A DNA stretch of 45,708 nucleotides from Ignavibacteriaceae bacterium. Its GTDB lineage: Bacteria > Bacteroidota > Ignavibacteria > Ignavibacteriales > Ignavibacteriaceae. Positions 21,798 through 39,928 of the stretch are shown here, piece after piece. The notes beneath the pieces were generated by a model, which worked only from the letters and a program-made list of their open reading frames with translations, ran no database searches and was not told where the DNA came from. The DNA lies in NCBI GenBank assembly GCA_014860115.1, contig JACZKK010000133.1, positions 1 to 45,708 of the forward strand, read 5' to 3'. A program made the translations under genes and the position numbers. Each line of letters starts with the position of its first letter. The stretch's first letter is position 1.

Positions 21798-21833
21798 TTA
21801 TTGAGCCAGCACTTTCATAGAATTTATTCACTA

Positions 21834-21878
21834 GGACTAAGTACCCATTTGCGTAAATTTATATTAAAATTAATTTTA
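21834..21878 (+). promoter_or_regulatory. Candidate activator site plus promoter (GTAC motif, site 1)
   Basis: GGACTAAGTACCCATTTG (21834-21851) ends in TTTG at the -33 position; 19 nt later is TAATTTTA (21871-21878), one mismatch from TAnnTTTG. The 18-bp motif recurs with one mismatch before the MscS gene (25466-25483) at the same spacing. It would transcribe the outer-membrane protein gene starting at 21925. Confidence 0.5.
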
Positions 21879-21924
21879 AATGAGTAATTCTGTATGTTCA
21901 ACACTATTAAATAATGAGGTTAAA

Positions 21925-22566
21925 ATGAAATCCGTCGTTTACAAAAACTCGAGTCTTTACTTTATTACTTTGTCAACATTATTGCTATTCTACTCAAACA
22001 CTTTTGCACAAACAGAAATTTTTGGTTTTGGAGGATACGAGGTTGCTTCTGATGTCCAGGTAACACAAGGACAATTGAACATTTACAGCAATCCAAATTA
22101 TGGTGCTGGAATCGCTTTCGAAGTAGAGAGAGGTGTTAAGGCAGAGGTATTTTGGATTGGTCAGCAAACACCAATGGAATTAAAAAGATATAACGGACTT
22201 ACAGAACCTCTGTTTGATGTTGGCATCCATTATTTTCAGGCTGGTGCAGTTTATGAATTCAGGCAGACACGAGCTCAGAAAGCATTTCCGTTTACTTCTT
22301 TCAGTTTAGGAGCTACACTATTTAGTCCGGTAGATTCGGACTTTAACGAGGAATGGAGATTCTCAATTACTTTCGGAGGTGGTGGAAAGTTTTATCTGTC
22401 AGATAATGTCGGATTAAGATTACAAGCGAGGATGCTGCTTCCACTCAATTTTTCAGGCGCAGGAATGTGGTGCGGAACCGGTGGATGCAGCGTTGGTGTT
22501 GGAAGCTGGGCTACTTTATTGCAGGCTGATTTCACAGGCGGCATATTTATCAAGCTAGGACGATGA
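21925..22566 (+). CDS. Small outer-membrane beta-barrel protein
   Basis: 213 residues: signal peptide (MKSVVYKNSSLYFITLSTLL... ending SNTFAQ), then glycine- and aromatic-rich alternating strands typical of an OmpA/OmpW-sized barrel (VGIHYFQAGAVYEF, FSITFGGGGKFYLSDNVGLRLQARMLLPL). ATG at 21925 is preferred to one at 21880, because TGAGGT lies 4 nt upstream and the promoter is expected to start transcription near 21885. Two Cys near the C-terminus (MWCGTGGCSVG) may form a disulfide. Function unknown; the putative activator site suggests envelope-stress control. Confidence 0.7.
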   Translation: MKSVVYKNSSLYFITLSTLLLFYSNTFAQTEIFGFGGYEVASDVQVTQGQLNIYSNPNYGAGIAFEVERGVKAEVFWIGQQTPMELKRYNGLTEPLFDVGIHYFQAGAVYEFRQTRAQKAFPFTSFSLGATLFSPVDSDFNEEWRFSITFGGGGKFYLSDNVGLRLQARMLLPLNFSGAGMWCGTGGCSVGVGSWATLLQADFTGGIFIKLGR

Positions 22567-22662
22567 TTCCGGAGTTTTACCGATAAAAGATCCATCTTCT
22601 TTTTATAATTAAAAAATCATTGTAGTTTTTATTTTAATTTGTGACTTGACTAAGTTACTAAT

Positions 22663-24126
22663 ATGAAAAAAATTGTACTCTCAATTATTTCAATTCTATT
22701 TGGCATATATTCCCTTCACGCACAGGATCGTCAATTCTGGGATCAGGCTGTTGGAGGAAAAACAGCATTGCTAGGTGGTATTGCCGTCGGCGGGGTTAGA
22801 GATTATAGTGCTACATTTTATAATCCCGGTGCATTGGGTTTTGTTAGTAAAAAAAGTATGAGTGTTAATTTCAATATGTATGGCATAAAGGATTTCTCAT
22901 TCATTAATGGCGGCGGACCTGGCATTGATTCCAGATATACAAGAGTTTCATTATACCCTGCTTCTTTAGCCGGTCCTCTCCCGTTTATAGGTGATTCCCT
23001 CAATCGTTTTAGTTATATGATTTATGCAAACGGTTATTCCTACGTTAGAGTATCGGAAAGATATGAGGGTTATTCTGATGTGATTCCAACAAGAATTCAG
23101 TCGGGACTTGTGAATAATTTTGAAGGTGATGAATATCTTATTAATCAGGGAAAACTTGATGTATTACTTTCTGAAGTAAGTGTAGGATTTGGATATTCCA
23201 AAAAGATTGCTGACAATGTTGGGATTGGCTTTACTTTGTTAGGTGCTTATCGCGATCAAACAAAACAACGATATGAATCTTATACAGCTTATGATACAAT
23301 TAATCAGCGTTCAGCCACTTCAGATATTTTTATTGATATTGACTATTGGGCAGTCAGATTTTCAGGTAAGTTTGGGATATCAGCAGAATGGGATGACATT
23401 AAATTAGGAGCTACCATTACAACACCCAGTATTGCATTAAAACTTGCAAGTGGCGGTACTGACCATGCAAGTCTGACTTCCAATAATGTTATAGTAGATT
23501 CCACCACCGGAAATCCAATTGATATTCTTGCTTCAGACAGGCAGGAAGGTTTGCCTGTCTACTATAAAACTCCATTCTCTATTGCAGCAGGAATTGAATA
23601 CAAATTTTCAAATGAGACGTTGATTCATTTTGCTGCGGAATGGTTTGCACCAATATCGACTTATGCTGTGATGCAGCCGGAAAGCGGGAATTTTATTCTG
23701 AATAACCCTGCTATTGTCAGACCAAGAAATAGTGCAGATTTGTTAAAAGTGTTCGATTCAATGAAATCCGTTTTTAATGCGGGCATAGCTGTTGAACATA
23801 AAATGAATGATAAAGTCACCGGGTATGCAGCAATTAGAACAGATTTCAGTAATGCAAACTATGCAGACATTGAAGGATTGTTTATTGGATTTACAGATTT
23901 TAATGTATATCATTTTACACTCGGAGCTTCAACAAATATTGATGATACAATGATAGGAGTAGGATTTGAATACAGCCATGGACAAAGAGCAGATTTTCCA
24001 CAAATATTTAATTTCCCCACAGGCTCAGTTGAACCTGACGACTTAGTATTATTTGACAAACGCGGCACAAGCCATGCAATCTACAATAACTTTAATTTAT
24101 TTTTCGGTGTAACACAGTTACTTTAG
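22663..24126 (+). CDS. Outer-membrane transport protein, FadL/OmpP1-like
   Basis: 487 residues with signal peptide (ISILFGIYSLHAQ) and a long beta-barrel. The N-terminal RDYSATFYNPGALGFVSKKS resembles the 'yNPAgl' plug region of FadL/OmpP1 proteins, which admit hydrophobic molecules. The C-terminal strands end FNLFFGVTQLL. The substrate cannot be told. A lone gene 97 nt after the small barrel gene. Confidence 0.65.
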   Translation: MKKIVLSIISILFGIYSLHAQDRQFWDQAVGGKTALLGGIAVGGVRDYSATFYNPGALGFVSKKSMSVNFNMYGIKDFSFINGGGPGIDSRYTRVSLYPASLAGPLPFIGDSLNRFSYMIYANGYSYVRVSERYEGYSDVIPTRIQSGLVNNFEGDEYLINQGKLDVLLSEVSVGFGYSKKIADNVGIGFTLLGAYRDQTKQRYESYTAYDTINQRSATSDIFIDIDYWAVRFSGKFGISAEWDDIKLGATITTPSIALKLASGGTDHASLTSNNVIVDSTTGNPIDILASDRQEGLPVYYKTPFSIAAGIEYKFSNETLIHFAAEWFAPISTYAVMQPESGNFILNNPAIVRPRNSADLLKVFDSMKSVFNAGIAVEHKMNDKVTGYAAIRTDFSNANYADIEGLFIGFTDFNVYHFTLGASTNIDDTMIGVGFEYSHGQRADFPQIFNFPTGSVEPDDLVLFDKRGTSHAIYNNFNLFFGVTQLL

Positions 24127-24196
24127 CAACATATAAAAAAATGTATCCGCTTCGCTTTTGAAGAGTACAACTTTATTTAAGAACTTAAGGCATTGA

Positions 24197-25372
24197 TTGT
24201 TCTTATATCAAACCAATAATACTTTTTTTGCACAGGTTTCTGGAATGATGGAGGAACTTTGTGAACAGGAATTAATTGAGCTTGGTGCAAAAAATACCAA
24301 AGCAGCCTACCGTGGAATTTATTTCGAAGCTGACCTCCCCACTATTTATAGAATCAATTACACATCCAGAACTATCTCACGGGTTTTAGCCCCGCTAAAA
24401 ACTTTCCACTGCCGAAATGCTGATGCAATAATGAAGCTGGCAAAAAAAATTGAGTGGGATAAATTCTTTTCCTTAAATCAGACTTTTGCAATTACCTCAA
24501 ATGTTTCAAAAAGTTCAATCACAAATTCTTTATATGCATCACAGGTTCTTAAGGATGGGATTGCTGATTACTTCCGCGCAAAGTTTGGTAAAAGACCAAA
24601 TGTGGAAACCGTGAATCCTGATGTTCGGTTTAATCTTTTTATTGAAACAGATAATGCGGCTTTAAGTTTAGACACCTCCGGTGAATCATTGCACAAAAGA
24701 GGTTACAGGCTTCTTGCCGGTGAGGCTCCGATGCAGGAAACACTTGCTGCGGCAATAATCAAACTGAGTAATTGGGATGGTGAAAAACCTCTGCTTGATT
24801 GTATGTGCGGATCAGGAACAATTTTATGTGAAGCACTGATGCATTACTGCAGAATTCCCGCACAAAAACTCAGACAGAAATTCGGATTTTTTCACCTTAC
24901 TGACTTCAATAAATCTGTTTGGGAAAAATTTAAAACCGAAGCTGATAGTAAAATCAGAGCTCTGCCAAAAGGAGTTATAAGCGGTAGTGATAAATCGCAG
25001 ATAACAATAAATGTTGCAAAAGAAAACTTATCCCGGCTGCCTTATTCTGAATCAGTTGCTTTAGCTGCACATCCATTCCAGCACATTAAACAATTTGAAA
25101 ACGGAGTGCTGATAACCAATCCTCCTTACGGTATCAGGCTTGGCGAAAGGACTGAAGTAGAGAATCTCTACAAAGAACTTGGCGATTTTTTAAAAACAAA
25201 ATGTAAAGGCACTTCGGCTTTTATTTATACAGGTGAACCCTCTTTAAGAAAACATATCGGCTTGAAGACTTCGAGAAGAATTCCATTAGTTAATGGGAAG
25301 TTGGAAGGAGTTTTGCTGCAGATAGATAGTTATGAAGGAAGCAGGAAGAAGAAGTATCAGAAAAGTGAATAA
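24197..25372 (+). CDS. THUMP-domain RNA guanine-N2 methyltransferase (RlmL/TrmN-like)
   Basis: 391 residues. N-terminal ferredoxin-like/THUMP region (FFAQVSGMMEELCEQELIELGA, FNLFIETDNAALSLDTSGESLHKRGYR), then a Rossmann SAM-binding domain with LLDCMCGSGTILCEAL and the catalytic NPPYG at about residue 312. This matches the family that modifies guanine N2 in 23S rRNA or tRNA; the exact position is uncertain. The TTG start at 24197 keeps the conserved FFA...G(x)EELxxxEL beginning; an ATG at 24245 would remove it. Confidence 0.85.
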   Translation: MFLYQTNNTFFAQVSGMMEELCEQELIELGAKNTKAAYRGIYFEADLPTIYRINYTSRTISRVLAPLKTFHCRNADAIMKLAKKIEWDKFFSLNQTFAITSNVSKSSITNSLYASQVLKDGIADYFRAKFGKRPNVETVNPDVRFNLFIETDNAALSLDTSGESLHKRGYRLLAGEAPMQETLAAAIIKLSNWDGEKPLLDCMCGSGTILCEALMHYCRIPAQKLRQKFGFFHLTDFNKSVWEKFKTEADSKIRALPKGVISGSDKSQITINVAKENLSRLPYSESVALAAHPFQHIKQFENGVLITNPPYGIRLGERTEVENLYKELGDFLKTKCKGTSAFIYTGEPSLRKHIGLKTSRRIPLVNGKLEGVLLQIDSYEGSRKKKYQKSE

Positions 25373-25465
25373 TTGAAGTCCGACCTTTCAGATTTATATT
25401 CCAACTTATTCAACTAAGAATGAAAAAACAGAATCTGATAATATTAAATGCATGAAGAAAGATTG

Positions 25466-25510
25466 GGACTAAGTACCTATTTGAACCACGAACTGTTTTA
25501 TTTACATTTT
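25466..25510 (+). promoter_or_regulatory. Candidate activator site plus promoter (GTAC motif, site 2)
   Basis: GGACTAAGTACCTATTTG (25466-25483), 19 nt spacer, then TACATTTT (25503-25510, one mismatch from TAnnTTTG). Same motif and same spacing as at 21834-21878. It lies 30 nt before the MscS start codon. Confidence 0.5.
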
Positions 25511-25540
25511 ATAAAATCAAAACAATAAATCAATCGAATC

Positions 25541-27208
25541 ATGAAAACTCAACCAAGTTCTAAACTCCGAATCCTGAAATCAATTCAGTTCTTCCTGATT
25601 ATTTTATATTTGCTCTCACTCCCATTTGCACTGGATTCTTATGCATTTACTTCTACTGACAGTATTAAGACTGAAGAAAATAATTTAAATGTCGGTCAGA
25701 CTACTGCTGCGGTTAAATTCGAAGGCAAAATATTGTTCTATGTACGCGGGATAACTTCCTTGCCAGCCGAAGAACGTGCGCGCATTATCGCCGAAAGAAT
25801 GAATAATATAGCCGAAAATGATTCTATTAATACTGGATCGCTTCGGATAGAAGAATTAGAAGACCGAAGTAATATCCTTGCTGGTGAGAATTTTATTGTG
25901 AGCATTGTCGATGCTGATGCAGCGATTGAAGGATTAGATAGACAGCTCTTATCTGAAATAATAAAGAATAATATCGCTAAAGCAATTGATTCTTACCGAT
26001 ACGAACGCAGCAGCGGTGTATTGTTGAAGAAAGTAATTTATGCGGCTGTAGCTACAGTTGTGTTTTTATTATTGTTGTTTTTGTTTCTACGAATCTCGCG
26101 CAGGCTGGATAATCTTGTACAAGCAAAATTAAAATCCAGAATTGAAGGGTTAGAAACTCAGTCATATCATCTGATCCAGGCAAAACAATTATGGACTGCA
26201 CTACGTGGGTTTATCAATTCTATAAAAATACTTGTTATCGCTATACTAATATTTCTTTATGTGCAATATGTTCTAAAATCATTTCCATTGACCAAACCAC
26301 TTGCTGATGAATTATTTTCACTTATTCTCTCCCCTCTCGGCTCACTCGGAATGGGATTTGTTTCCTCATTACCAAATATCATTTTTTTAATTGTACTCTT
26401 TTTTGTCATTCGTTATTTAGTCAAGCTGATAAAATTATTTTTTGCCGGTGTGAGCCAGGGGACAATATCATTTGCAAACTTTGATCCGGAATGGGCATTA
26501 CCAACTTTTAAAATAGTACGGTTCCTCATAATTATTCTTGCCTTTGTTATTGCATATCCCTACATCCCGGGCTCAGAGTCGGATGCTTTTAAAGGAGTTT
26601 CTGTTCTCCTTGGAATAATGTTCTCTATCGGCTCATCATCATTTATAAGTAATATCATTGCAGGATACAGTTTGACGTACAGACGGGCTTTTAAAATTGG
26701 CGACCGGATAAAAATCGATGATTCTTTTGGCGATGTTGTTGATATGAAGTTATATGTCACACGCCTGCGCTCTCTAAAAAATGAAGAAATAATTATTCCT
26801 AATTCATCATTAATAAACAGCAACGTAATTAATTACAGTTCGTTAGCGAAGCAGCATGGTCTAATCCTGCACACAACTGTGGGAATAGGTTACGAGACTC
26901 CCTGGAGATTAGTTGAAGAGATGTTAAAATCAGCAGCTGATCGTACTCAAGGATTATTAAAACAGCCGACACCATTTGTCTTGCAAAAGTCGCTCGGAGA
27001 TTTTGCAATAACGTATGAGATAAATGCTTATTGCGATAGTCCTAATAAAATGATGCTTATATATTCCTCACTGCATCAAAATATTTTAGATGTTTTCAAT
27101 GAAAATAATATTCAAATAATGACTCCTGCTTATGAAGGTGATCCGGCGGAGCCAAAAGTCGTTCCTAAAGAAAAATGGTTTCCAACTCCAGGCACAAATA
27201 AAAAATGA
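25541..27208 (+). CDS. MscS-family mechanosensitive channel
   Basis: 555 residues: signal-like N-terminus, a periplasmic region (~35-160) with EERARIIAERM, several membrane helices (~165-385), then the MscS pore helix and beta domain (SSSFISNIIAGYSLTYRRAFKIGDRIKI, SLKNEEIIIPNSSLINSNVINYS, KSLGDFAITYEINAYCD). It releases solutes under membrane tension. The large periplasmic domain resembles YnaI/YbdG-type or plant-like larger members more than E. coli MscS. The candidate activator site upstream would make it stress-induced (inference). Confidence 0.88.
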   Translation: MKTQPSSKLRILKSIQFFLIILYLLSLPFALDSYAFTSTDSIKTEENNLNVGQTTAAVKFEGKILFYVRGITSLPAEERARIIAERMNNIAENDSINTGSLRIEELEDRSNILAGENFIVSIVDADAAIEGLDRQLLSEIIKNNIAKAIDSYRYERSSGVLLKKVIYAAVATVVFLLLLFLFLRISRRLDNLVQAKLKSRIEGLETQSYHLIQAKQLWTALRGFINSIKILVIAILIFLYVQYVLKSFPLTKPLADELFSLILSPLGSLGMGFVSSLPNIIFLIVLFFVIRYLVKLIKLFFAGVSQGTISFANFDPEWALPTFKIVRFLIIILAFVIAYPYIPGSESDAFKGVSVLLGIMFSIGSSSFISNIIAGYSLTYRRAFKIGDRIKIDDSFGDVVDMKLYVTRLRSLKNEEIIIPNSSLINSNVINYSSLAKQHGLILHTTVGIGYETPWRLVEEMLKSAADRTQGLLKQPTPFVLQKSLGDFAITYEINAYCDSPNKMMLIYSSLHQNILDVFNENNIQIMTPAYEGDPAEPKVVPKEKWFPTPGTNKK

Positions 27209-27308
27209 TGTTATGTGAGTTGACAATCTCCTAAACCAGTTTACTCTTATTTCAAACATAGATTTTATTTTTTACTAAACTCTAATCGCTTTATTAGCGT
27301 ATGATATA

Positions 27309-27734
27309 ATGAAAAATCCGACAAAAATAATTTTGACTCTTGTAGCTGCAGCAATATTAATCATTCTTGTAGTTGTTCTCACAAATAAACAATCTTCAGA
27401 AAGCAACACTCCTGGCATAAAAACCACAAACGAAAATTTACTTGTCGGTAATTGGATCAGAACAGATTTTGAATACAGAATCTCAATTTCAAAAATCAAT
27501 GAGGACGGAACGCTTGCAGCTCAGTACTTCAATCCAAATCAAATAAATGTTGGTAAAGCAAGTTGGGCGGAAAGTTACGGCAACCTTAAAATTATTATTG
27601 AATTAAGGGATGTTAATTATCCCGGCTCAACTTATACATTGAACTACCTTCCAGATAGAGATATGCTTGCCGGAGAATATTACCAGGCAGTTGAGGGTTT
27701 GACATTTTACGTTGAGTTCATCAGAAAACACTGA
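27309..27734 (+). CDS. Small membrane-anchored protein, unknown function
   Basis: 141 residues: one N-terminal membrane helix (IILTLVAAAILIILVVVL), a short Ser-rich linker, then a compact beta-rich domain (LVGNWIRTDFEYRISI, GTLAAQYFNPNQINVGKA, YPGSTYTLNYLPDRDMLAGEYY) that looks lipocalin-like. The last strand ends VEFIRKH. I do not recognise a named family. It converges with the DUF748 gene with a 12-nt gap. Confidence 0.65.
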   Translation: MKNPTKIILTLVAAAILIILVVVLTNKQSSESNTPGIKTTNENLLVGNWIRTDFEYRISISKINEDGTLAAQYFNPNQINVGKASWAESYGNLKIIIELRDVNYPGSTYTLNYLPDRDMLAGEYYQAVEGLTFYVEFIRKH

Positions 27735-27746
27735 TTATTTTTTTAT

Positions 27747-30095
27747 TCAATCCAAAGAACCTATTCCGAGCCTGCATCTCACCCAGTTCCTGTCTTCCTC
27801 TTCAAAAATTTCATTCTCTTTGATTGCTATTCTCTCTGGTGGTATTTGATGAACTGTCATCATATGATTTCTTATGGCTTCTGCTCTTGTTGTTGCAATG
27901 TTTTGGAATTCCATTTCACTTATTGGTTGAGTTGAAATAAGTTTTTGTCTTAACTCTTCGAGATAATTTCTTAAATCACCATTTCCCGCCGAGTCAATTT
28001 GGAATTTAACTTTTACCAGGTTTAGTAAAGAATCATTATTAGCCTGAACGTACATTTCCTCCAGGATTCCCTGACCTTTTGTATAGTCTGTCTTTTTTTG
28101 TGAAGCTGTTGTATCCGCACCTGTTTTACCTGTTAATCTCTGGTTATAAACGCTGTCGAATTTTGCTTCACGCATTGCCAATCCATCCGTAACGGTATCC
28201 ACTGCTCCATAAATTTCCAGAACAATCCCCGGTCGTTCTGCCATTATTTTGGACAGGCTAATCATTTTTTCAAACTGGTGGTTTTCCAGTTCTGCGCTTC
28301 CGACTTCAAAATCAACTGACTCGAGATCTTCGCCACCTATACCAAGTAAACCACCAAGAAAACGAAATGGTGCTGTTACGATTGTAGTCAGAACTCTTTT
28401 AACCGCCCACCAGACTAATGCACCTGTATCTGTTTCCGGATCATTTAAATCTCCTTCAACTTCGAGATCGAGATCAATATTTCCATCAGCATCTTTCAGA
28501 AGTGCAATTGCCAGTTTTATCGGAAGTCCTAAGCCTTCTTCTCCTTCTACTTCATCACCAAGTGTGAACTTATTCAAAAATACCTTGCTGTATGAAGTAA
28601 GAATTCCATTATCAATTTTATACTCAACATCCAGAGAAAGCTTTCCGCTTTCGAGATGATACCCGATAAAGTCAATTGAATATGGTGTAAGATTGGTCAT
28701 TTCAATATTATGGAAATTCATTTTAATATCTGAATAAGCTATCGGATCAAACGGATCCATCTTGCCTTTTATTTTGGCGAGCCCGTATTCGTCAACCGTT
28801 CCTTCCATTTTTATTTCTGCTCCAAGTGGATTTTCACTTGAGAAACCGATTACTTCTCCATTTAACTGATGAATTTTAGAAGCGAATTGCAGCGGCAGAC
28901 TCAAATCAGAAAAATACATTTCACTGTTTTCAATTTTTATGCTACCAATATCATAATTAAAGTCCATCTGCTCCTTTTTGGTATCAGCAGATTTGATAAA
29001 CAGTGTATCGGAGGTTTGTCCGGAATCAACAAGTACAGGAGATTCCTTCAACACCTCGATCAGGTTAATACCTTTATCTTCTGCGATAGCTATTCTTGTA
29101 TATAATTTTTTCAGATTAACATCACCAATATTAATGAGCATAGGATTAAGCTGTCCGCTGATATCAGATACTGTAAGTGAATTCCATTCAAGAAATCTTT
29201 CATCGTGCTTTGTGTCATAAAGAATGAGGTTTGTAATACTTGTATTTGCAGTAAAAGATATATCCATTTTTTTTGATGGATCCGGTTCATCAATCTTAAT
29301 GCTGCCGTCAATTGAGAGAAGACCATCGTCCAATCTAAGGTATGCGAATTGCGCAACATAAGGTGCCAATGGTTTCAGGCTAGCTTGATCAAGAGAAAAG
29401 TTTAAATCCGCTTTTAAAGGAGTCATCGAAAAATTACCGCTGAGTGAAAAGCTTCCACCGTGTCGGAGGTTGGATGTAAGATAAAAATCAGATGTGTCAG
29501 ATGAATTGAAACGTAAATTGGTTACAGTAACACTGAAACTGTCAATCCTTGTTTCTCCGGGTGGATTTACCGCTTTGTCAGTAATCTGCAAATGAAGCCC
29601 TTGTAAATCAAACTTTTGAATGAATATTTCCCACGGTTCATCTTCTTCCGCAACCTCCACTGAATCAGTATTCTGCCGGATCGCAGTTTCTATCAAATCT
29701 GAAAAATTAAACTCTTCTTCATTATAACGGATAATATTCCCATCCGGTTCGGTTAATTTTATTTCTTCAAAGTTAACTTCCTTGCTAAGTAAAGGCAGCA
29801 AGCTGACATTGATGAAGAATTCCTTGAATGAAAAAAAAGTTTCTTCTTTTTCTTTCTCATACATTTTGAATCCTTCAACCGAAAGTGTGAAAGCAAATGG
29901 ATTGAATGAAACCGATTCTATTTCTGCATCCCTTTTAAACTCCTCTTTTATATAATCAACCGCTTCACTTTTTATTATCATCGGTACAATGAAGAATCCT
30001 GCGATGGTGTAAATGATGAACAATGCTACCGCAGCATATAATGCAATTCGAAGGATTTGTTTAATTAGTGATTTTTTGTTTTTTTGTTCTGACAT
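27747..30095 (-). CDS. DUF748 (AsmA-like) protein with OmpA-like C-terminus
   Basis: 782 residues. One membrane helix at about 15-38, then a long beta-rich periplasmic region of the DUF748/AsmA type (FSFKEFFINVSLLPLL, ITDKAVNPPGETRIDSFSVTV, LTPYSIDFIGYHLESGKLSLDVEYKI, LPIKLAIALLKDADGNIDLDL). The C-terminus has an OmpA-like stretch (MAERPGIVLEIYGAVDT... IATTRAEAIRNHM). AsmA-like proteins are linked to lipid transport or envelope upkeep. Divergent from sulfatase 1. Its promoter carries the GTAC motif. Confidence 0.85.
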   Translation of the reverse strand: MSEQKNKKSLIKQILRIALYAAVALFIIYTIAGFFIVPMIIKSEAVDYIKEEFKRDAEIESVSFNPFAFTLSVEGFKMYEKEKEETFFSFKEFFINVSLLPLLSKEVNFEEIKLTEPDGNIIRYNEEEFNFSDLIETAIRQNTDSVEVAEEDEPWEIFIQKFDLQGLHLQITDKAVNPPGETRIDSFSVTVTNLRFNSSDTSDFYLTSNLRHGGSFSLSGNFSMTPLKADLNFSLDQASLKPLAPYVAQFAYLRLDDGLLSIDGSIKIDEPDPSKKMDISFTANTSITNLILYDTKHDERFLEWNSLTVSDISGQLNPMLINIGDVNLKKLYTRIAIAEDKGINLIEVLKESPVLVDSGQTSDTLFIKSADTKKEQMDFNYDIGSIKIENSEMYFSDLSLPLQFASKIHQLNGEVIGFSSENPLGAEIKMEGTVDEYGLAKIKGKMDPFDPIAYSDIKMNFHNIEMTNLTPYSIDFIGYHLESGKLSLDVEYKIDNGILTSYSKVFLNKFTLGDEVEGEEGLGLPIKLAIALLKDADGNIDLDLEVEGDLNDPETDTGALVWWAVKRVLTTIVTAPFRFLGGLLGIGGEDLESVDFEVGSAELENHQFEKMISLSKIMAERPGIVLEIYGAVDTVTDGLAMREAKFDSVYNQRLTGKTGADTTASQKKTDYTKGQGILEEMYVQANNDSLLNLVKVKFQIDSAGNGDLRNYLEELRQKLISTQPISEMEFQNIATTRAEAIRNHMMTVHQIPPERIAIKENEIFEEEDRNWVRCRLGIGSLD

Positions 30096-30125
30096 AAGAA
30101 TAGTAATAATTGAGATAACTTGTTT

Positions 30126-30171
30126 TAAACTTACTTAAAAATATCCACCTGACAATAGTACTCTAGTATAG
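30126..30171 (-). promoter_or_regulatory. Candidate activator site plus promoter (GTAC motif, site 3)
   Basis: Read on the minus strand: CTATACTAGAGTACTATTG (plus 30171-30153), exactly 19 nt, then TAAGTTTA (plus 30133-30126; one mismatch from TAnnTTTG). This is the same order and spacing as sites 1 and 2. The leader to the DUF748 ATG would be about 24 nt. Confidence 0.45.
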
Positions 30172-30281
30172 CCCAATCTAGATAAAGATGAGTATGTGAA
30201 ATAGTGGTTTGATCAATTAACGCTGAAGCAATTTAGCATTTTTTGTCATCTTACATTTTATGTGGTGTTTCTTAGAAATTA

Positions 30282-30323: not shown

Positions 30324-30379
30324 TTAAAATACCAATCGATTTTAATCAACTAAATCTCAATAATTAAGGAGGCATGATA

Positions 30380-31933
30380 ATGCTTAAAAAATCACTTATG
30401 ATTTTATTTCTCTTTTCTTTTGTGTCTTTAATGGCACAGGACAAACCAAACATACTCGTTATCTGGGGTGACGATATCGGAACATGGAATATCAGTCACA
30501 ACAACCGTGGAATGATGGGATACCAAACACCAAATATTGACAGAATTGCAAGCGAAGGTGTTGGTTTTACAGATTATTATGCTCAACAATCTTGCACCGC
30601 TGGGCGTGCAGCATTTATTAGTGGCAGTGTACCCGTAAGATCTGGAATGACCAAAGTAGGTATGCCGGGTGCTAAAGAAGGATGGCAAATAACTGATCTT
30701 ACTATGGCCACTGTTTTGAAAAGTCAGGGATATGCTACTGGTCAATTTGGAAAAAACCATCAAGGTGATCGTGATGAACATTTACCTACTAACAATGGTT
30801 TTGATGAATTTTTAGGAAATCTTTATCATCTCAATGCAGAAGAAGAGCCAGAAAATATGGATTATCCTGGTGATATGATTTTAAAAGATGGCAAAACATT
30901 TAGAGAAAAATTTGGACCCAGAGGGGTTATTCACTCATGGGCGGATGGTAAAGGTGGGCAACGTATTGAAGATACAGGACCTTTAACAAAAAAACGAATG
31001 GAAACTATCGATGATGAAACTGTTGAAGCTGCAAAAAAATTCATTAGAGAAACTGTAAAATCCGGTAAGCCTTTCTTTGTATGGTGGAATGGTACCCGTA
31101 TGCACTTCAGAACCCATGTAAAAGAAGATAGACGTCATAAAGGCAATGATGAATACACAGATGGTATGATTGAACACGATATGCATGTTGGACAATTACT
31201 CGACTTGTTGGACGAATTAGGTGTAACAGAAAATACAGTTGTAATGTATTCTACGGACAATGGACCTCATTACAATACCTGGCCAGATGCTGGAACCACT
31301 CCATTTCATGGAGAAAAAAATAGTAGCTGGGAAGGAGCTTATCGTGTGCCATGCTTTATAAAATGGCCGGGTCATTTTCCAAGTGGTAAAACTTTAAATG
31401 GAATTGTTGCCCATGAAGATTGGTTGCCCACTTTTGCTGCTATCGCTGGAGAACCAGATATAGTTGCTAAGGCTAAAAAAGGTGTAACGTTAAATGGTAG
31501 ATCATATAAAAATTATATCGATGGTTATAATCAATTGGAATACTTAAAAGGGAATGTTAAAGAATCACCTAGAGAAGGTTTTATATATGTAAATGATGCA
31601 GGAGAGATTGCCGCTTTACGATATGGCGATTGGAAAGCTATGTTCCTAGAAAATAGAGCAGATCGACTGCAAATTTGGCTAGAGCCTTTTACAGAATTAA
31701 GAGCCCCTTATCTTTTTAATCTTCGAAGAGATCCTTTTGAAAAAGCATTAGTGGGTTCGAATACCTATTATGACTGGTATATTGATAGAGCCTACATTCT
31801 TATAGCTATACAAGGGTATGCTTTTAATTTCTTAAGTACATTTAAAGATTATCCACCAAGCCAAACAGCTGGTGACTGGAGTCTATCAAAAGTGCAAAAA
31901 CAAATTGAAGCAATGACAATAGGCACAAATTAA
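30380..31933 (+). CDS. Exported type I (formylglycine) sulfatase, copy 1
   Basis: 517 residues; signal peptide MLKKSLMILFLFSFVSLMAQ, so periplasmic or outer. Sulfatase core: NILVIWGDDIG (metal-binding Asp pair), SCTAGRAAF with Cys72 in the [C/S]-x-[P/A]-x-R motif converted to formylglycine, GKNHQGD (Lys/His), STDNGPHYN (metal-binding Asp-Asn), GEKNSSWEGAYRVP. Start ATG at 30380 has GGAGG 7 nt upstream; ATG at 30374 is too close to it. Hydrolyses a sulfate ester, substrate unknown. About half identical to copy 2 (37106), with much closer matching near the N-terminus. No maturase gene is in the window. Confidence 0.88.
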   Translation: MLKKSLMILFLFSFVSLMAQDKPNILVIWGDDIGTWNISHNNRGMMGYQTPNIDRIASEGVGFTDYYAQQSCTAGRAAFISGSVPVRSGMTKVGMPGAKEGWQITDLTMATVLKSQGYATGQFGKNHQGDRDEHLPTNNGFDEFLGNLYHLNAEEEPENMDYPGDMILKDGKTFREKFGPRGVIHSWADGKGGQRIEDTGPLTKKRMETIDDETVEAAKKFIRETVKSGKPFFVWWNGTRMHFRTHVKEDRRHKGNDEYTDGMIEHDMHVGQLLDLLDELGVTENTVVMYSTDNGPHYNTWPDAGTTPFHGEKNSSWEGAYRVPCFIKWPGHFPSGKTLNGIVAHEDWLPTFAAIAGEPDIVAKAKKGVTLNGRSYKNYIDGYNQLEYLKGNVKESPREGFIYVNDAGEIAALRYGDWKAMFLENRADRLQIWLEPFTELRAPYLFNLRRDPFEKALVGSNTYYDWYIDRAYILIAIQGYAFNFLSTFKDYPPSQTAGDWSLSKVQKQIEAMTIGTN

Positions 31934-31965
31934 GTAATTTAATTTATGTCTGTAAATATTGATAA

Positions 31966-32002
31966 AAGGCGCTGATGTAGTTCAGCGCTTTTTATTTTTT
32001 TT
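31966..32002 (+). terminator. Terminator between sulfatase 1 and HAD 1
   Basis: Stem GCGCTGA/TCAGCGC (31969-31975, 31982-31988), loop TGTAGT, then a long T-rich tail. It should limit read-through from the sulfatase into the HAD gene. Confidence 0.85.
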
Positions 32003-32032
32003 AAAAAATATTAATGATAATATGAGTTGATA

Positions 32033-33031
32033 ATGAAACATCTGAATTTACTTTTAATATTTTTAACATTAATTCTGTTCTCTTGTTCAGAGCAGATTAA
32101 TCAAAAATCAGAGCCCCTCCCCTCCTGGAATGAAGGGAAAAACAAGCAATCTATAATAAATTTTGTAAATGAAGTAACGGATGAAAAATCGCCAAACTTT
32201 GTAAAACCCGGAGACAGGATTGCAACATTTGATAATGATGGATGTTTATGGAGTGAACAGCCTTATTATTTTCAACTTCAGTTTGCACTTGATAGAGTAA
32301 AAGTCTTAGCGCCTGAGCATCCTGAGTGGAATGATAATCCTCTATTTAAAGCTGTATTAGAAAATGATATTAAAACTGTGCTTTCATTTGGCGAGCATGG
32401 TTTACTGCAATTAGTTATGACAACCCATGCAGGAATGACGACAGAAGAATTTGCACAAATTGTAAAAGAATGGATTAATACAGCAAAACATCCAAAGACA
32501 AATAAACTTTATAAAGAAATGGTTTTTCAGCCAATGCTTGAATTGCTTGATTACTTAAGAGCAAACGGATTTAAAACTTTCATCGTCTCCGGCGGCGGAA
32601 TAGATTTTATGCGTCCCTGGACGGAAGAAGTTTATGGTATTCCATCAGATCAAGTTGTTGGTAGTTCTGGTAAAGTTAAGTTTGAAATAAGAGAAGGGCA
32701 ACCTGTTCTAGTTAAACTTCCTGAAATAAATTTTATCGATGATAAAGAAGGCAAGCCTGTCGGTATCCATCAGTTTATAGGTAAAAGACCAATTGCTGCT
32801 TTTGGTAATTCCGATGGTGATCTTCAGATGCTCCAGTATACAGCAGCCGGCGAAGGTAAAAGACTAATGTTATACGTTCATCATAGAGATGCAGAACGTG
32901 AATGGGCGTATGATAGAGAATCACACATTGGTAGACTCAATAAAGGACTTGATGAAGCTAATAAAAAAGGTTGGATCGTAGTAGATATGAAAAATGATTG
33001 GAAAGTTATTTATCCATTTGAGATGAAATAA
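32033..33031 (+). CDS. HAD-family phosphatase lipoprotein, copy 1
   Basis: 332 residues; lipoprotein signal with lipobox LFSC (mature Cys about 20). HAD motif I is FDNDGCLW with the nucleophile Asp at about 67; motif II Ser in FIVSGGG; a late acidic motif in AFGNSDGDLQML. A phosphohydrolase of the periplasm or outer membrane. The third residue after the second Asp, normally Thr, is Cys here, whereas copy 2 has Thr. Start ATG at 32033 has GAG at a good distance. About 80 percent identical to copy 2 (38921) by eye, much closer than the two sulfatases are. Confidence 0.85.
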   Translation: MKHLNLLLIFLTLILFSCSEQINQKSEPLPSWNEGKNKQSIINFVNEVTDEKSPNFVKPGDRIATFDNDGCLWSEQPYYFQLQFALDRVKVLAPEHPEWNDNPLFKAVLENDIKTVLSFGEHGLLQLVMTTHAGMTTEEFAQIVKEWINTAKHPKTNKLYKEMVFQPMLELLDYLRANGFKTFIVSGGGIDFMRPWTEEVYGIPSDQVVGSSGKVKFEIREGQPVLVKLPEINFIDDKEGKPVGIHQFIGKRPIAAFGNSDGDLQMLQYTAAGEGKRLMLYVHHRDAEREWAYDRESHIGRLNKGLDEANKKGWIVVDMKNDWKVIYPFEMK

Positions 33032-33268: not shown

Positions 33269-35146
33269 ATGATTTTAAAAACAAAAATCCACATGCTTCT
33301 CACTTTCTTACTGCTCATACCGCTGCAGAGACCATCTGCAGCTCAGTATGAAGAAGCCAAAAACATTCTCTTCCTTTTTTCCCTGAACCAGGGAATTGTA
33401 GCTTATCAAATGACACTGGAAAATTTTAAGAATACTTTAAGAGACGAATACGGTAAACCATACAATCTTTATGTAGAATATCTCGATGTTGGAAAAATTC
33501 CCTACATCAGTTACCAGGAATATTTATTTGAACATATCAATGAAAAGTATAAAAGTGCTAATATAGATTTACTCATTTGCGTTGGCCCAAGGATAATGCC
33601 TTTGCTTGAAAAATATGCTGCCACCCATATCATTAACCTACCCACAATTTCCCTGGACTTAAGAAATCCTTTTAACGAAAGTCAAAAATATTCATTGCAT
33701 TCCGACACAAAGGAAATATTACTCAGTATAAATGCCAAAAAGAATTTTGAGCTTGCGTTTTCATTATTCCCGGACTTTACATCTGTATATATAATTTCTG
33801 GTGTATCAGATGCAGATGCGTATTGCAGTAAAATAATTAAGAGTGCGGTACCTGAATTCGAAAAATTGAAAAATATTATAAACCTGACTGACCTATCTAT
33901 GGAAGAAGTTCTTAACAAAGTAACCCTAATTCCCCAAAAGAGTATTATTATAATGGCTTCCTTTTTATCGGATGCTAATCACATAACATATAATACAGCT
34001 GAAGCAGTCAGACTGATTCGAAGCAGAACATCAGCTCCTATTTTTATTTTATTTGACACTGCTTTTAATGAAGGTGCACTGGGCGGTTTTGTTGGAAGTT
34101 TTACAAATGGAGGTTTAGTAGCCGGTAAAGCAGCCACCAAAATATTAAATGGTGAAAATCCTAATCATGTCCAGATAGATGAGAGCAAATCAAACCAATA
34201 CATGTTCAATTATCAGGAACTCGAAAGATTTAACCTGGTCAATTCAAGTCTTATTCCGGATGAGAGTATTATCCTTTTTGAAAAAACTAATTTGATATCC
34301 AGATATAAGTGGATTTTAGCTGCTGGAATTTCATTCATTATTCTACAAGCATTGCTAATAATCACCCTTGTACGTAAAAATAAAAACCAAAAGCTATTAA
34401 CTCATCAGTTAATTGAAACTGAAAACAGGTATCGTGAACTGGTAAGAGAAGATCGCCTTCAGCGAATGTCTGAGTTGACAGCATCACTTTCACACGAACT
34501 GAATCAGCCGCTCACTGCAATTCGTAATTCTGCTCAAGCAGGATTAAAATTTATGTACTCTGAGAATACAGACCCTAAAATAATGAATGAAATATTCCAA
34601 AATATTGTTGAAGACAATAAGAGAGCTGCGGATGTTTTAAGCAGCATCAGAGAACTAATGAAGCTTGAAAAAAGAGAAAAGCAAAAAATTGATCTTAACT
34701 TAATGATCAAACAGGTAAAAGAAATATTCAGGGGTGAAACAAATCAAAAAAATTTAAAACTGCAATTGAATCTTCCTGAAAAACCGGTTTATGTTTTGGG
34801 AGATAATATTCAAATTCAGCAAGTGCTTTTGAATTTCATATCTAATGCTGAACATGCGATAGAAGAAGGCAGCAGTAATAATATGATTGAAATGAATGTG
34901 ATGATTGTGAATGATATAGCAATAACATCAGTTCGTGATTACGGCAAAGGGATAGATGAATCTGTAAAAAATAAATTATTCAGACCGTTTGTAACAACAA
35001 GAGAAAAGGGATTTGGAATTGGGCTGGCTATCAGTAAATCTATTATTGATGAACACGGCGGAAAAATCTGGGCAGAAAATAATCCTGATGGCGGTGCAAC
35101 TTTTTCATTTCAGTTAAAGTTATGGAATGATGATCAGAGAAAATGA
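33269..35146 (+). CDS. Sensor histidine kinase with ABC-substrate-binding-like sensor domain
   Basis: 625 residues. Signal peptide (~1-25), a periplasmic region (~30-340) of the ABC substrate-binding type (two-lobe pattern: NILFLFSLNQGIVAYQM, LLICVGPRIMPLLEKY, SVYIISGVSDADAY, PIFILFDTAFNEGALGGFVG), one membrane helix (~348-370), HisKA with SLSHELNQPLTAIRNS (His about 409), and HATPase with NAEHAIEEG, DYGKGID and GFGIGLAI. The binding-protein-like sensor suggests a small-molecule ligand. The regulator gene overlaps its end by 20 nt. Confidence 0.9.
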   Translation: MILKTKIHMLLTFLLLIPLQRPSAAQYEEAKNILFLFSLNQGIVAYQMTLENFKNTLRDEYGKPYNLYVEYLDVGKIPYISYQEYLFEHINEKYKSANIDLLICVGPRIMPLLEKYAATHIINLPTISLDLRNPFNESQKYSLHSDTKEILLSINAKKNFELAFSLFPDFTSVYIISGVSDADAYCSKIIKSAVPEFEKLKNIINLTDLSMEEVLNKVTLIPQKSIIIMASFLSDANHITYNTAEAVRLIRSRTSAPIFILFDTAFNEGALGGFVGSFTNGGLVAGKAATKILNGENPNHVQIDESKSNQYMFNYQELERFNLVNSSLIPDESIILFEKTNLISRYKWILAAGISFIILQALLIITLVRKNKNQKLLTHQLIETENRYRELVREDRLQRMSELTASLSHELNQPLTAIRNSAQAGLKFMYSENTDPKIMNEIFQNIVEDNKRAADVLSSIRELMKLEKREKQKIDLNLMIKQVKEIFRGETNQKNLKLQLNLPEKPVYVLGDNIQIQQVLLNFISNAEHAIEEGSSNNMIEMNVMIVNDIAITSVRDYGKGIDESVKNKLFRPFVTTREKGFGIGLAISKSIIDEHGGKIWAENNPDGGATFSFQLKLWNDDQRK

Positions 35147-35765
35147 GAAAATATTTGTAATTGACGACGACGAATCAGTTAGAAGGAGTTTACCCCTACT
35201 TCTAAAGACAATGGATTACGAAGTCGAGACGTTTTCCAGTTCTGAGGAATTTCTTAATAGTAAACAATTCAATGGATCAGGCTGCATAATTCTTGACATA
35301 AATCTTGAAGGTAAAAGTGGTCTTGAACTTCAGGATGAATTGTTAAAAAATCCATATCACCTTCCTATAATTTTTATTACCGGTAAAGGTAAAGTTCCAG
35401 AAAGCGTACAGGCAGTGAAAAAAGGTGCAGTTGATTTTCTTCAGAAGCCGTTTGATGATGAGCAACTTCTGAAAGCAGTGGAAGAAGCTGTTGCTAAATC
35501 GCGTAATTGGAAGAAAGAATTCGATGAGCAAATGGAAGCAAAGGACAAGATAGATAAACTTACTCAAAGAGAGCTTGAAGTTTTAAAGTACGTAATAACA
35601 GGAATGCTTAACAAGCAAATAGCAAACGAGCTTAATATTGCAGAACACACCGTAAAAATTCACAGGGGCAAAATAACTGAAAAGATTGGAGTCAAATCAG
35701 TTGCAGAACTCGTACGCATTGCAGAGCAAGCCGGAATCCAACCATTGTATACGAAAATATCTTAG
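35127..35765 (+). CDS. FixJ/NarL-type response regulator
   Basis: 212 residues. Receiver domain with DDDE, phospho-acceptor Asp about 57 in ILDINLEG and Lys in QKPFD, then a LuxR-type helix-turn-helix (LTQRELEVLKYVITG, NKQIANELNIAEHTVKIHRG) as in FixJ. The start overlaps the kinase gene by 20 nt, so the two form one system. It is the only DNA-binding regulator in the window and hence the natural candidate to bind the GTAC-centred sites (inference). Confidence 0.92.
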   Translation: MMIRENEKIFVIDDDESVRRSLPLLLKTMDYEVETFSSSEEFLNSKQFNGSGCIILDINLEGKSGLELQDELLKNPYHLPIIFITGKGKVPESVQAVKKGAVDFLQKPFDDEQLLKAVEEAVAKSRNWKKEFDEQMEAKDKIDKLTQRELEVLKYVITGMLNKQIANELNIAEHTVKIHRGKITEKIGVKSVAELVRIAEQAGIQPLYTKIS

Positions 35766-35801
35766 TCTGATTCCTTCCTAATATCTACCTAGATTTTATA
35801 G

Positions 35802-35817
35802 AACTAAGGTACTATAG
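35802..35817 (+). promoter_or_regulatory. GTAC motif variant upstream of the lone receiver (site 4)
   Basis: AACTAAGGTACTATAG matches site 3 (ACTAGAGTACTATTG) at 12 of 15 positions. It lies 38 nt before the receiver start. The TAnnTTTG element is not at the 19-nt spacing seen at sites 1-3; TACTGTTTTG begins 9 nt downstream. Confidence 0.35.
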
Positions 35818-35855: not shown

Positions 35856-36218
35856 ATGATATACATTATAGATGACGACAAATCCGTAAGAAGATCATTT
35901 GAAATACTTTTTGCGGCCGCCGGTTTTACGTGCAAATCTTTTGAAGGCACAAAAGAATTTCTGGATGAATATGTTCAAACAGAGGGTGATCTGCTTATAC
36001 TTGATATACACATACCTGATATTAACGGATGCGGGCTTTTAAAAATACTGAAAGAAAAAAATATTCATATATCTGTCATTATTGTAACTGCATACGATGA
36101 GGAAGAGAGTCGCAAATGTGCAGAAGATTACGGAGTAATTGATTTTTTAGTAAAACCCGTTGATGGTGATGCACTTATAGAATTGATTAGTTCAAATACA
36201 AAACAACCAACCTCATAA
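35856..36218 (+). CDS. Stand-alone receiver domain protein
   Basis: 120 residues, a CheY-like receiver only: IIDDDKSVRRS, phospho-acceptor Asp about 50 in ILDIHIPDINGC, Thr in IVTAYD and Lys in VKPVD. No output domain. It probably takes phosphate from the upstream kinase as a sink, relay or competitor, or binds a partner directly. It begins 90 nt after the FixJ-type gene and has its own candidate motif upstream. Confidence 0.88.
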   Translation: MIYIIDDDKSVRRSFEILFAAAGFTCKSFEGTKEFLDEYVQTEGDLLILDIHIPDINGCGLLKILKEKNIHISVIIVTAYDEEESRKCAEDYGVIDFLVKPVDGDALIELISSNTKQPTS

Positions 36219-37105: not shown

Positions 37106-38677
37106 ATGATTAAGAAATCTTTTTTGACTCTCTTTTTCATTTCTTTCGTGTCGTTAATGGCACAGGACAAACCAAACATACTCGTCATTATGGGTGATGA
37201 CATTGGCTGGTTTAATTGCAGTACATATAATGAAGGAATGATGGGTTACTTGACACCCAACATTGATCGCCTTGCTACAGAAGGCCAACGATTCAATACG
37301 TGGTACGGCCAGCAGAGCTGCACTGCAGGTCGAGCTGCTTTTGTTACCGGCCAATCGCCAATTCGCACCGGTTTAACCAAAGTAGGTATGCCGGGCGCTG
37401 ACGTTGGGCTTAGTCTGGAAGATCCGACGATCGCTGAATATTTAAAAGCACTTGGCTATGCTACAGGTCAGTTTGGTAAAAATCATTTAGGTGATTTGAA
37501 CAAATTCCTGCCAACGGTTCATGGTTTCGACGAATTTTTTGGCAACCTTTATCATCTTAACGCTGAAGAAGAACCAGAAGATTCTGATTATCCAAAGGAT
37601 CCAAATTATAGGGAACTATTCGGCCCACGTGGTGTACTTAAATGCACTGCAACTGAAGTTGATGATCCCACGGTCCAAGGAAAGTTTGGTCCGATTGGAA
37701 AACAAAAAATCGAAGACACTGGTCCCTTAACAAAAAAACGTATGGAAACTATCGATGAGGAATTTACATCTGCAGCAATCGATTTTATTGATAGGCAGGT
37801 AAAAGCAAACAAACCATTTTTCTGTTATTACAATTCTACACGATGCCACGTGTTCACCCACCTCAGCCCACAATATGAAGGTAAAACTGGTTTTGGATTG
37901 GAAGCAGATGCAATGACAGAGCTTGATGATAATGTGGGAAAGTTGCTAAAGAAACTTGATGATCTTGGGATAACAAACAATACAATTGTTGTGTTCACCA
38001 CTGACAATGGGGCAGAGATGATGTCCTGGCCTGATGGAGGAAGCACTCCCTTTCGCGGTGAAAAAGCAACGAACTGGGAAGGCGGTTACCGTGTTCCTAC
38101 ATTAATTCGTTGGCCGGGAATCATTAAGCCGGGGACTGTTTCTAATGACATCTTCGCTCACGAAGATTTTATTCCTACTTTCTGTGCTGTCGCTGGACAA
38201 ACTGACGTGGTGCAAAAAAGTTTGACAGGTTACACAATGAACGGCAAAACATATAAGGTACATCTTGACGGCTATAATATGCTTCCGTTTTTAAAAGGCG
38301 ATGTAAATGAAAATCCCAGAAAAGAATTTGTTTACTGGAGTGATGATGGGGACCTTTTCGCAATTCGCTATGGCCGCTGGAAAATTTCATTCACTGAACA
38401 GTACAATACCGGAATTGATATCTGGATGAAGGATTATACTAAACTCAGAGCCCCAAATATTTATGATTTGTATGCCGATCCATTTGAACGTGGACCACAA
38501 TCCTCATGGTATACTGACTGGATGGTTCACCATCTTTACCTCACATATGGAGCACTTGCTTATGTGGCTAATTGGCTTTCTAGTTTTAAAGAATTCCCAC
38601 CAAGACAAAAACCGGCAAGCTTCAACCTCGATGAAATAATGAGGAAAATGAGCGAAACGCATACCGGAAGTCATTAA
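37106..38677 (+). CDS. Exported type I (formylglycine) sulfatase, copy 2
   Basis: 523 residues; signal peptide MIKKSFLTLFFISFVSLMAQ. Core motifs: NILVIMGDDIG, SCTAGRAAF with the formylglycine-precursor Cys72 (same position as in copy 1), GKNHLGD, TTDNGAEMMSWPDGG and GEKATNWEGGYRVP. Ribosome site GGAGG 10 nt before ATG. A 32-nt tract at the signal-peptide junction (37154-37185) is identical to copy 1 although the rest diverges strongly. A strong hairpin follows the gene. Substrate unknown. Confidence 0.88.
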   Translation: MIKKSFLTLFFISFVSLMAQDKPNILVIMGDDIGWFNCSTYNEGMMGYLTPNIDRLATEGQRFNTWYGQQSCTAGRAAFVTGQSPIRTGLTKVGMPGADVGLSLEDPTIAEYLKALGYATGQFGKNHLGDLNKFLPTVHGFDEFFGNLYHLNAEEEPEDSDYPKDPNYRELFGPRGVLKCTATEVDDPTVQGKFGPIGKQKIEDTGPLTKKRMETIDEEFTSAAIDFIDRQVKANKPFFCYYNSTRCHVFTHLSPQYEGKTGFGLEADAMTELDDNVGKLLKKLDDLGITNNTIVVFTTDNGAEMMSWPDGGSTPFRGEKATNWEGGYRVPTLIRWPGIIKPGTVSNDIFAHEDFIPTFCAVAGQTDVVQKSLTGYTMNGKTYKVHLDGYNMLPFLKGDVNENPRKEFVYWSDDGDLFAIRYGRWKISFTEQYNTGIDIWMKDYTKLRAPNIYDLYADPFERGPQSSWYTDWMVHHLYLTYGALAYVANWLSSFKEFPPRQKPASFNLDEIMRKMSETHTGSH

Positions 38678-38693
38678 ATATAAACCAAGTCCC

Positions 38694-38722
38694 TGCGGGG
38701 TCTCTCAACAGAAGACCCCGCA
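38694..38722 (+). terminator. Strong hairpin after sulfatase 2
   Basis: Perfect 10-bp stem TGCGGGGTCT/AGACCCCGCA (38694-38703, 38713-38722) with a 9-nt loop. There is no T-run, so it may be a transcript-stabilising hairpin or a weak terminator. It differs in sequence from the hairpin after sulfatase 1. Further on, GGGGTACTAGTAAATTGG (about 38747) loosely recalls the GTAC motif. Confidence 0.6.
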
Positions 38723-38920
38723 CAGACTATTATTAATTAATCGATTGGGGTACTAGTAAATTGGACAAAGAGGGTAACTTAATCTTCAATGTTAAATTTG
38801 AATCCCAATATTCTATATTACAAGATGGAATAGGGCAAACAGATTTTCAATTATTTAATAGTATAAATCTGCAGTTTGCTAAAAATTTTATTTTTAGAAA
38901 AAAAACTAAAGGAGTTGATT

Positions 38921-39928
38921 GTGAAAAAGAAATATTTTCTACTTCTTATAATTGTGTTAGTAACCGGCTTGCTCACTACTTGCAAACAAAGTACAACAGA
39001 AAACTCAAATCCACTTTCTTCCTGGAATGATGGAAAGACGAAGCAGTCTATAATAGATTTTGTAAATGATGTTACAAACGAAGCAAGCCCGGACTATGTG
39101 AAGCCGGTAGATAGAATTGCTACATTTGATAATGACGGAACACTCTGGTCTGAACAGCCAAATTATTTTCAGTTTGCTTTTGCTTTCGACAGAATTAAAA
39201 CAATGGCACCGGATCATCCTGAATGGAAAAACACCCAGCCATTCAAAGCAGTTCTTGAAAACGATATGAAGACAATTATGGAATCAGGTATGAAAGGACT
39301 GATGGAAATAATGATGACCACACATGCGGGAATGACTACAGAGGAATTTGTTCATATTGTAATGGAATGGATAAACACTGCAAAACATCCGAAGACAAAT
39401 AAACTTTACAAAGAAATGGTCTTTCAACCTATGCTCGAGTTATTGGATTATTTAAGAGCAAACGAATTTAAAACCTACATTGTTTCTGGTGGAGGAATAG
39501 AATTTATGCGTCCCTGGACGGAAGAAGTTTATGGCATTCCCGCAGATCAGGTTGTCGGTAGTTCAGGCAAAGTTAAGTTTGAGATAAAAGACGGACAGCC
39601 TGTTTTAATTAAACTGCCAGAACTAAATTTTATTGACGATAAAGAAGGCAAGCCTGTTGGTATTCATCAGTTTATTGGTAAAAGACCAATAGCAGCTTTT
39701 GGAAATTCAGATGGCGACTTACAAATGCTTCAGTGGACAGCAGTCGGTGAAGGGAAAAGATTAATGCTATACGTTCATCACACAGATGCAGATCGAGAAT
39801 GGGCTTATGATAGAGAATCACACATCGGAAAACTCGATAAAGGGCTTAACGAAGCAAATGAAAAAGGTTGGGTTGTTGTTGATATGAAGAATGATTGGAA
39901 AGTTATTTATCCGTTCGAGATGAAATAA
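38921..39928 (+). CDS. HAD-family phosphatase lipoprotein, copy 2
   Basis: 335 residues from GTG at 38921, chosen because AAAGGAG lies 7 nt upstream and the protein then begins with a lipoprotein signal (MKKKYFLLLIIVLVTGLLTTC); reading further upstream adds only unrelated sequence. HAD motif I FDNDGTLW with nucleophile Asp about 70, motif II Ser in YIVSGGG, and AFGNSDGDLQML. Canonical Thr is kept in motif I, unlike copy 1. Long stretches are identical to copy 1, including KLYKEMVFQPMLELLDYL and the C-terminal KVIYPFEMK. Confidence 0.87.
   Translation: MKKKYFLLLIIVLVTGLLTTCKQSTTENSNPLSSWNDGKTKQSIIDFVNDVTNEASPDYVKPVDRIATFDNDGTLWSEQPNYFQFAFAFDRIKTMAPDHPEWKNTQPFKAVLENDMKTIMESGMKGLMEIMMTTHAGMTTEEFVHIVMEWINTAKHPKTNKLYKEMVFQPMLELLDYLRANEFKTYIVSGGGIEFMRPWTEEVYGIPADQVVGSSGKVKFEIKDGQPVLIKLPELNFIDDKEGKPVGIHQFIGKRPIAAFGNSDGDLQMLQWTAVGEGKRLMLYVHHTDADREWAYDRESHIGKLDKGLNEANEKGWVVVDMKNDWKVIYPFEMK

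Follow-up and report, generated by a model that had tools for sequence, protein, structure and literature searches.

A StyR/FixJ-type two-component regulator with a precisely spaced 18-bp operator probably controls a small envelope regulon in Ignavibacteriaceae

Among the described bacterial regulatory systems, those that most resemble the one analyzed here are built around response regulators of the StyR/FixJ type and their LuxR-type relatives. In one of these, FixL senses oxygen by means of haem. In Caulobacter, FixT, which has a receiver domain, exerts feedback on FixL (PMC7078487). StyR activates from the STY2 site at about -40 (PMC2442086), and activation by CrbR requires the ACTU repeat at -52 to -36, which is absent where CrbS/R is absent (PMC5715377). 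We examined a stretch of 45,708 nucleotides from an Ignavibacteriaceae bacterium (contig C193 of the genome denoted G000; hereafter, the window) along with the rest of the genome and its relatives. Sequence comparison makes it probable that a StyR/FixJ-type regulator encoded on a different contig, C131, acts on a small set of envelope genes through an 18-bp operator, by class II activation.

The window contains two sites, GGACTAAGTACCCATTTG at 21834-21851 and GGACTAAGTACCTATTTG at 25466-25483, that are followed 19 nt on by TAATTTTA and TACATTTT, respectively. The letters, spacing and boxes are exactly those reported in a first-pass annotation of this DNA, and with up to three mismatches allowed, the motif has two matches in the window, against 0.03 expected from shuffled sequence. 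The dyad, in contrast, had been misplaced: the symmetric element is not centred on GTAC but is ATAGG-N8-CCTAT. In the corresponding 18-bp register, operator 1, CTAGGACTAAGTACCCAT, occupies positions 21831-21848 and operator 2, TTGGGACTAAGTACCTAT, positions 25463-25480, both on the plus strand, and the respective -7-type boxes (21871-21878 and 25503-25510, plus strand) lie 22 nt past them. The -7 consensus TAnnTTTG is established in Bacteroidetes, and its use in Ignavibacteriaceae is an assumption. Operator 1, which is also found in the orthologous promoters of the related genomes G002 and G003, precedes the gene of a predicted small outer-membrane protein (21925-22566, plus strand) that has no Pfam match, and operator 2 precedes the gene of an MscS-type mechanosensitive channel (25541-27208, plus strand; Pfam MS_channel_2nd/3rd). 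In the region 21880-21927, the longest frame of the outer-membrane protein begins at 21880, immediately past the -7 box; the ATG at 21925 is the better start, given its better fit to the promoter and to the G002 orthologue, the start of which it matches. Judging from these features, operators 1 and 2 are real sites of the same kind, precisely spaced, for a putative activator of the StyR/FixJ type.

A third site had been placed on the minus strand at 30171-30153, upstream of the gene of a DUF748/AsmA protein (27747-30095, minus strand; Pfam DUF748), and the 19-nt spacing had been held to be constant over three promoters. The letters are indeed present, but the best ungapped alignment to the 18-mer has mismatches at 9 of the 18 positions, more than 2,000 positions in the window match the 18-mer as well or better, and the resemblance to the motif appears only when one base is inserted (ACTA-AGTAC vs ACTAGAGTAC). 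The distance of exactly 19 nt is obtained because the annotation chose where the motif ends; when measured from the common ..YAT, the -7 box is 21 nt away, vs 22 nt at operators 1 and 2. The constancy of the spacing, then, stands for two promoters in the window and for nearly all sites in the genus (see below) but not for the third site, which is 1 nt closer in register. The membership of the DUF748 promoter in the regulon is unsupported. What is found there is a different motif, GCTATACTAGAGTACTAT (30155-30172, minus strand), which has ACTARRGTACTATNGNC in common with a site at 35798.

This latter site is part of another two-component locus within the window. A sensor histidine kinase gene (33269-35146, plus strand; Pfam HisKA, HATPase_c and a weak ABC_sub_bind) is followed on the same strand by the gene of a FixJ/StyR-type response regulator (35127-35765; Pfam Response_reg and GerE), a variant operator, ATAGAACTAAGGTACTAT (35798-35815), and the gene of a CheY-like, receiver-only protein in a FixT-like position (35856-36218; Pfam Response_reg), in which, according to the alignment, the phosphorylation residues are retained. 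No position in the six genus genomes other than 35798-35815 matches ATAGNACYWARGTNCTAT exactly, and the FixJ paralogue of the window probably uses this variant operator. Whether the DUF748 promoter and the receiver gene, together, make up a second small regulon of this paralogue, with the diverged operator ACTARRGTACTAT, is almost evenly balanced, and we lean slightly against it. The DUF748 and 35798 sites are the only two exact matches of ACTARRGTACTATNGNC in the genome, although that pattern was itself derived from these two sites, and the 35798 site falls in the interval from the regulator gene to the receiver gene, where this family of regulators usually has its operator. However, the TA-box is at +21 in the case of DUF748, there is none at +22 in the case of the receiver gene, and no such site is present in the upstream stretches examined of the DUF748 orthologues in G002 and G003. 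Gene pairs encoding a sulfatase and a HAD hydrolase (30374-33031 and 37106-39928) flank the kinase, FixJ, receiver and DUF4136 genes of the window on both sides, as if a pair had been duplicated.

The scan of the complete assembly (3.9 Mb in 222 contigs) recovered five matches to the motif with at most one mismatch and none with two or three. We count these as four distinct sites because the start of contig C7 (1-26) and the end of contig C199 (1-26, reversed) share the same 26 bases; both contigs break exactly at the operator and are probably neighbors, the two copies apparently being one place split by the assembly. The four sites precede the genes of the small outer-membrane protein and the MscS channel, a C7 operon that includes a DUF4136 lipoprotein gene, and the gene of an outer-membrane protein on C131, and each is followed, at equal distance, by N19 and a TAnnTTT box. 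Rather than being scattered, which would have refuted the original proposal, the sites are in all four cases located 71-163 nt before the next gene start (with 21925 taken as the start of the first gene). A 13-base match on C217 (AAGTACCTATTTG without GGACT) was left out, its strand being opposite to that of the next gene. When the TAnnTTT box is included, the full pattern is found at 11 sites in four of the six genus genomes, seven of these sites coming from same-genus relatives, compared to a single match of the backwards control. A TAnnTTT-like box is at +22 in 10 of the 11 sites, a result that none of 20,000 shuffles matched at any offset; the exception, before the outer-membrane protein gene of G003, shows no more than a weaker box at +23. 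The 17-mer with at most one mismatch is absent from 53 other genomes of the family and order, where the 9 matches of the backwards control indicate the chance rate of such matches, and the search of viral contigs yielded one distant match only. A small regulon, with the operator immediately upstream of -33 and at a fixed spacing, is as would be expected of an activator that touches RNA polymerase, in agreement with the original proposal.

The target genes are shared across the genus to different extents. MscS is not a conserved target: its G005 orthologue has no site, and that of G002 has only a degenerate GGACT-N5-CCTAT, at the right spacing. In the latter region (L025:3538-3585), AGGACTTTCGTCCTAT precedes TACTTTTC by the same distance; the dyad there is degenerate but more symmetric. 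In G001, relatives of the outer-membrane (57%) and DUF4136 (33%) proteins are present, with no site before either.

The C131 site is located 63 bp behind a StyR/FixJ-type regulator gene, itself preceded by the gene of a sensor kinase in which Pfam detects HisKA and HATPase domains only. The regulator combines the Pfam Response_reg and GerE domains, and its closest solved structures are those of StyR (1yio, E 1e-48) and FixJ (5xso, E 1e-31). At E <= 1e-40, orthologues of this regulator (71-73% identical) are present in G000, G002, G003 and G005, and there are none in G001, G004 and 74 other genomes of the family. The regulator and the motif thus occur in the same four of the six genus genomes. 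In a sample of six genomes, several of them incomplete (77-91%), perfect agreement of this kind arises by chance in 1 case in 15, so that linkage is the stronger argument. In G000, G002 and G003, no gene intervenes between the regulator gene and the site; in G005, one does, and the site stands before a receiver-only gene. In all four genomes, the kinase gene is immediately upstream of the regulator gene. On these grounds, the C131 protein is most likely the cognate activator, with better support than the window FixJ protein (35127), which had been proposed as the first candidate. The latter is encoded on the same contig as the sites, shares 53% identity with the C131 regulator, and differs from it by a single residue in the recognition helix (AEHTVKNH/AEHTVKIH), a near identity with which the two paralogues could cross-bind. 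At E <= 1e-40, however, the 35127 protein is found in this genome only, whereas the motif occurs in three relatives that lack an orthologue, and what stands behind its gene is a different variant, the aforementioned ATAGAACTAAGGTACTAT. The earlier assignment is hence unlikely to be correct, the C131 paralogue being both linked to the motif and co-occurring with it.

Homologues of the C131 regulator in other phyla have the same 18-bp dyad behind their genes, 22 nt ahead of a TA-box. The Bacteroidetes loci L058 and L062 contain ATAGAACCAAAGTACTAT-N22-TAATTTTG, with a divergent second copy with TATTTTTG, and ATAGACCTAAAGTTCTAT-N22-TATATTTG, respectively; the Aminicenantes locus L066 contains ATTGTACCAAGGTACAAT-N22-TAAATTAA; and dyads are found also in Deltaproteobacteria (L060, L064), Desulfopila (L069) and Omnitrophica (L072). 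Across 39 loci, counting both strands, the 250 bp that follow the regulator gene contain 20 matches to the dyad with at most two mismatches, where area alone would predict 1.4 and Markov sequence gives 0.12. All 12 oriented sites from other phyla have TA at +22, and any other offset has it in four at most; these sites were picked partly by eye after the first ones had been seen, so the count is descriptive, and the 22-nt distance was preset by the Ignavibacteriaceae sites. Some of the boxes in other phyla are weak -10 elements. A strict Bacteroidota-type pattern (ATAGNACYNARGTNCTAT, N22, TANNTTTG, with at most one mismatch) has zero matches in 395 genomes of the phylum, where the operator-promoter unit is accordingly rare; the GTACC half-site of the genus is a misfit to this pattern. 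Additional copies of the dyad are found at L058:2046-2063 and at L069:792, 3609 and 7985, and because these face other genes near the regulator, additional targets are probable for the L058 and L069 systems. In a Verrucomicrobia MAG (L082:4630-4660) and a deltaproteobacterial MAG (L064:2265-2295), the dyads past the regulator gene are in tandem, 15 nt apart.

These comparisons bear on what the element is. It is very improbable that it represents the -35 box of an alternative (ECF-type) sigma factor rather than the site of an activator: strong conservation does stop right at -33, and the spacing to the downstream box is fixed, but this box is one expected of the primary sigma factor (TAnnTTTG in Bacteroidetes and TATTNT-like elsewhere). 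The 18-bp element, moreover, has dyad symmetry, almost complete in Aminicenantes (ATTGTACCAAGGTACAAT), and it goes together with a LuxR-type regulator gene. A small mobile or repetitive element, as near-identical 18-mers at several places, one of them at two contig ends (C7 and C199), might suggest, can hardly be the source of the repeats, and this reading was rejected: the flanks are not shared, with the similarity ending at the operator and the 22-nt spacers of the genus sites averaging 40% identity; the two contig ends have an overlap of 26 identical bases and look like a single place; and the sites keep their placement with respect to start codons and -7 boxes.

In the activator model that we favor, the phosphorylated C131 regulator would bind as a dimer to the 18-bp imperfect dyad ATAGG-N8-CCTAT at about -52 to -35, a position assigned because the box is taken as the -12 to -7 region, so that the operator would be centred near -43 relative to the transcript start. 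The bound dimer would then recruit the main RNA polymerase, with the TAnnTTTG-type -7 element exactly 22 nt on. Class II activation is the most likely mode because this placement matches the CrbR and StyR precedents and StyR is the closest structure. The C131 operator itself would also drive the operon behind the regulator gene, which encodes the outer-membrane protein, a receiver-only protein and, perhaps, a DcaP-type porin and a glutaminase, whereas the small outer-membrane protein, the MscS channel and the DUF4136-lipoprotein operon would be remote targets in the same genome.

In ten loci, at most one gene separates the receiver-only gene from the operator that precedes it, and in the alignment of its products, D8, D52 and K102 are invariant and T80 is nearly so. 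By analogy with FixT, this protein probably provides feedback on the kinase, which it would damp as Caulobacter FixT does. Next to the cassette, C131 encodes a glutaminase and a DcaP-type porin, L058 an aspartase-family lyase and an asparaginase, and L062 a DcuA/B transporter along with a further lyase with the same start sequence, which suggests amino acids or their amides as a theme; the signal itself, perhaps, belongs to these compounds. More tentatively, and with some doubt, these loci can be viewed as variants of a phylum-spanning cassette of three genes, encoding a membrane kinase, a StyR-like activator and a receiver-only feedback protein, with a portable, invariant operator-promoter unit (18-bp dyad, 22 nt, TA-box) fitted to local outputs, namely, asparaginase, aspartase-family lyase and C4-dicarboxylate transport in Bacteroidetes, and glutaminase, porin and envelope proteins in Ignavibacteriaceae.

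Taken together, the analysis corrects the regulator assignment of the first-pass annotation and offers a testable combination of a regulator, an operator and a target list for uncultured Ignavibacteriaceae, whose transcription control is little known. The occurrence of the dyad and its spacing in several phyla opens the way to sequence-based prediction of regulons for a widespread, uncharacterised StyR-like branch, and the receiver-only protein is indicated as a built-in feedback part of StyR-like systems.

As for the novelty of the regulon, which had been presented as likely unreported, no report was found in the literature searched, nor did this yield a bacterial operator with these letters, but the type of operator is already known from StyR and CrbR. 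The StyS/StyR system of Pseudomonas fluorescens ST is similar in that StyR is the best full-length structure match of the C131 regulator and an activator acting near -40, and differs in its kinase, in its targets and in its role, the control of styrene catabolism. The STY box, ATAAACCATGGTTTAT, differs from the genus operator in the outer arms, and StyR is not known to have a linked receiver-only gene. CrbR/ErdR of Gammaproteobacteria likewise combines a LuxR-type regulator with an imperfect inverted repeat that has the same core (e.g., TACGACTAAAGTCTAAA) but is associated with an SLC5-fused (SLC5-STAC) kinase and acetate genes, whereas Pfam detects no SLC5 domain in the C131 kinase and the targets here are envelope proteins, not acs/actP. 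The DevR/DosR box, GGGACTWWAGTCCC, shares its core with one deltaproteobacterial site, GGACTAAAGTCC (L064); DevR/DosR is, however, an actinobacterial regulator with other kinases, and the C131 regulator matches DevR (3c3w) far less well in sequence (E 3e-9). The FixLJ-FixT system of Caulobacter resembles the present one in joining a FixJ-type regulator to a receiver-domain protein, although FixT binds Fe-S, whereas the receiver proteins here retain the usual phosphorylation residues. With its receiver and GerE domains, the paired kinase, the dyad at a fixed 22 nt from the -7/-10 box, and a motif found only where the regulator is present (in a small sample, four of six genus genomes), the C131 system falls among the StyR/FixJ-type regulons, whose response regulators have the NarL/LuxR fold. 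The regulon is new, but its kind is familiar: a StyR/FixJ-type two-component activator with a site layout that recurs in distant phyla.
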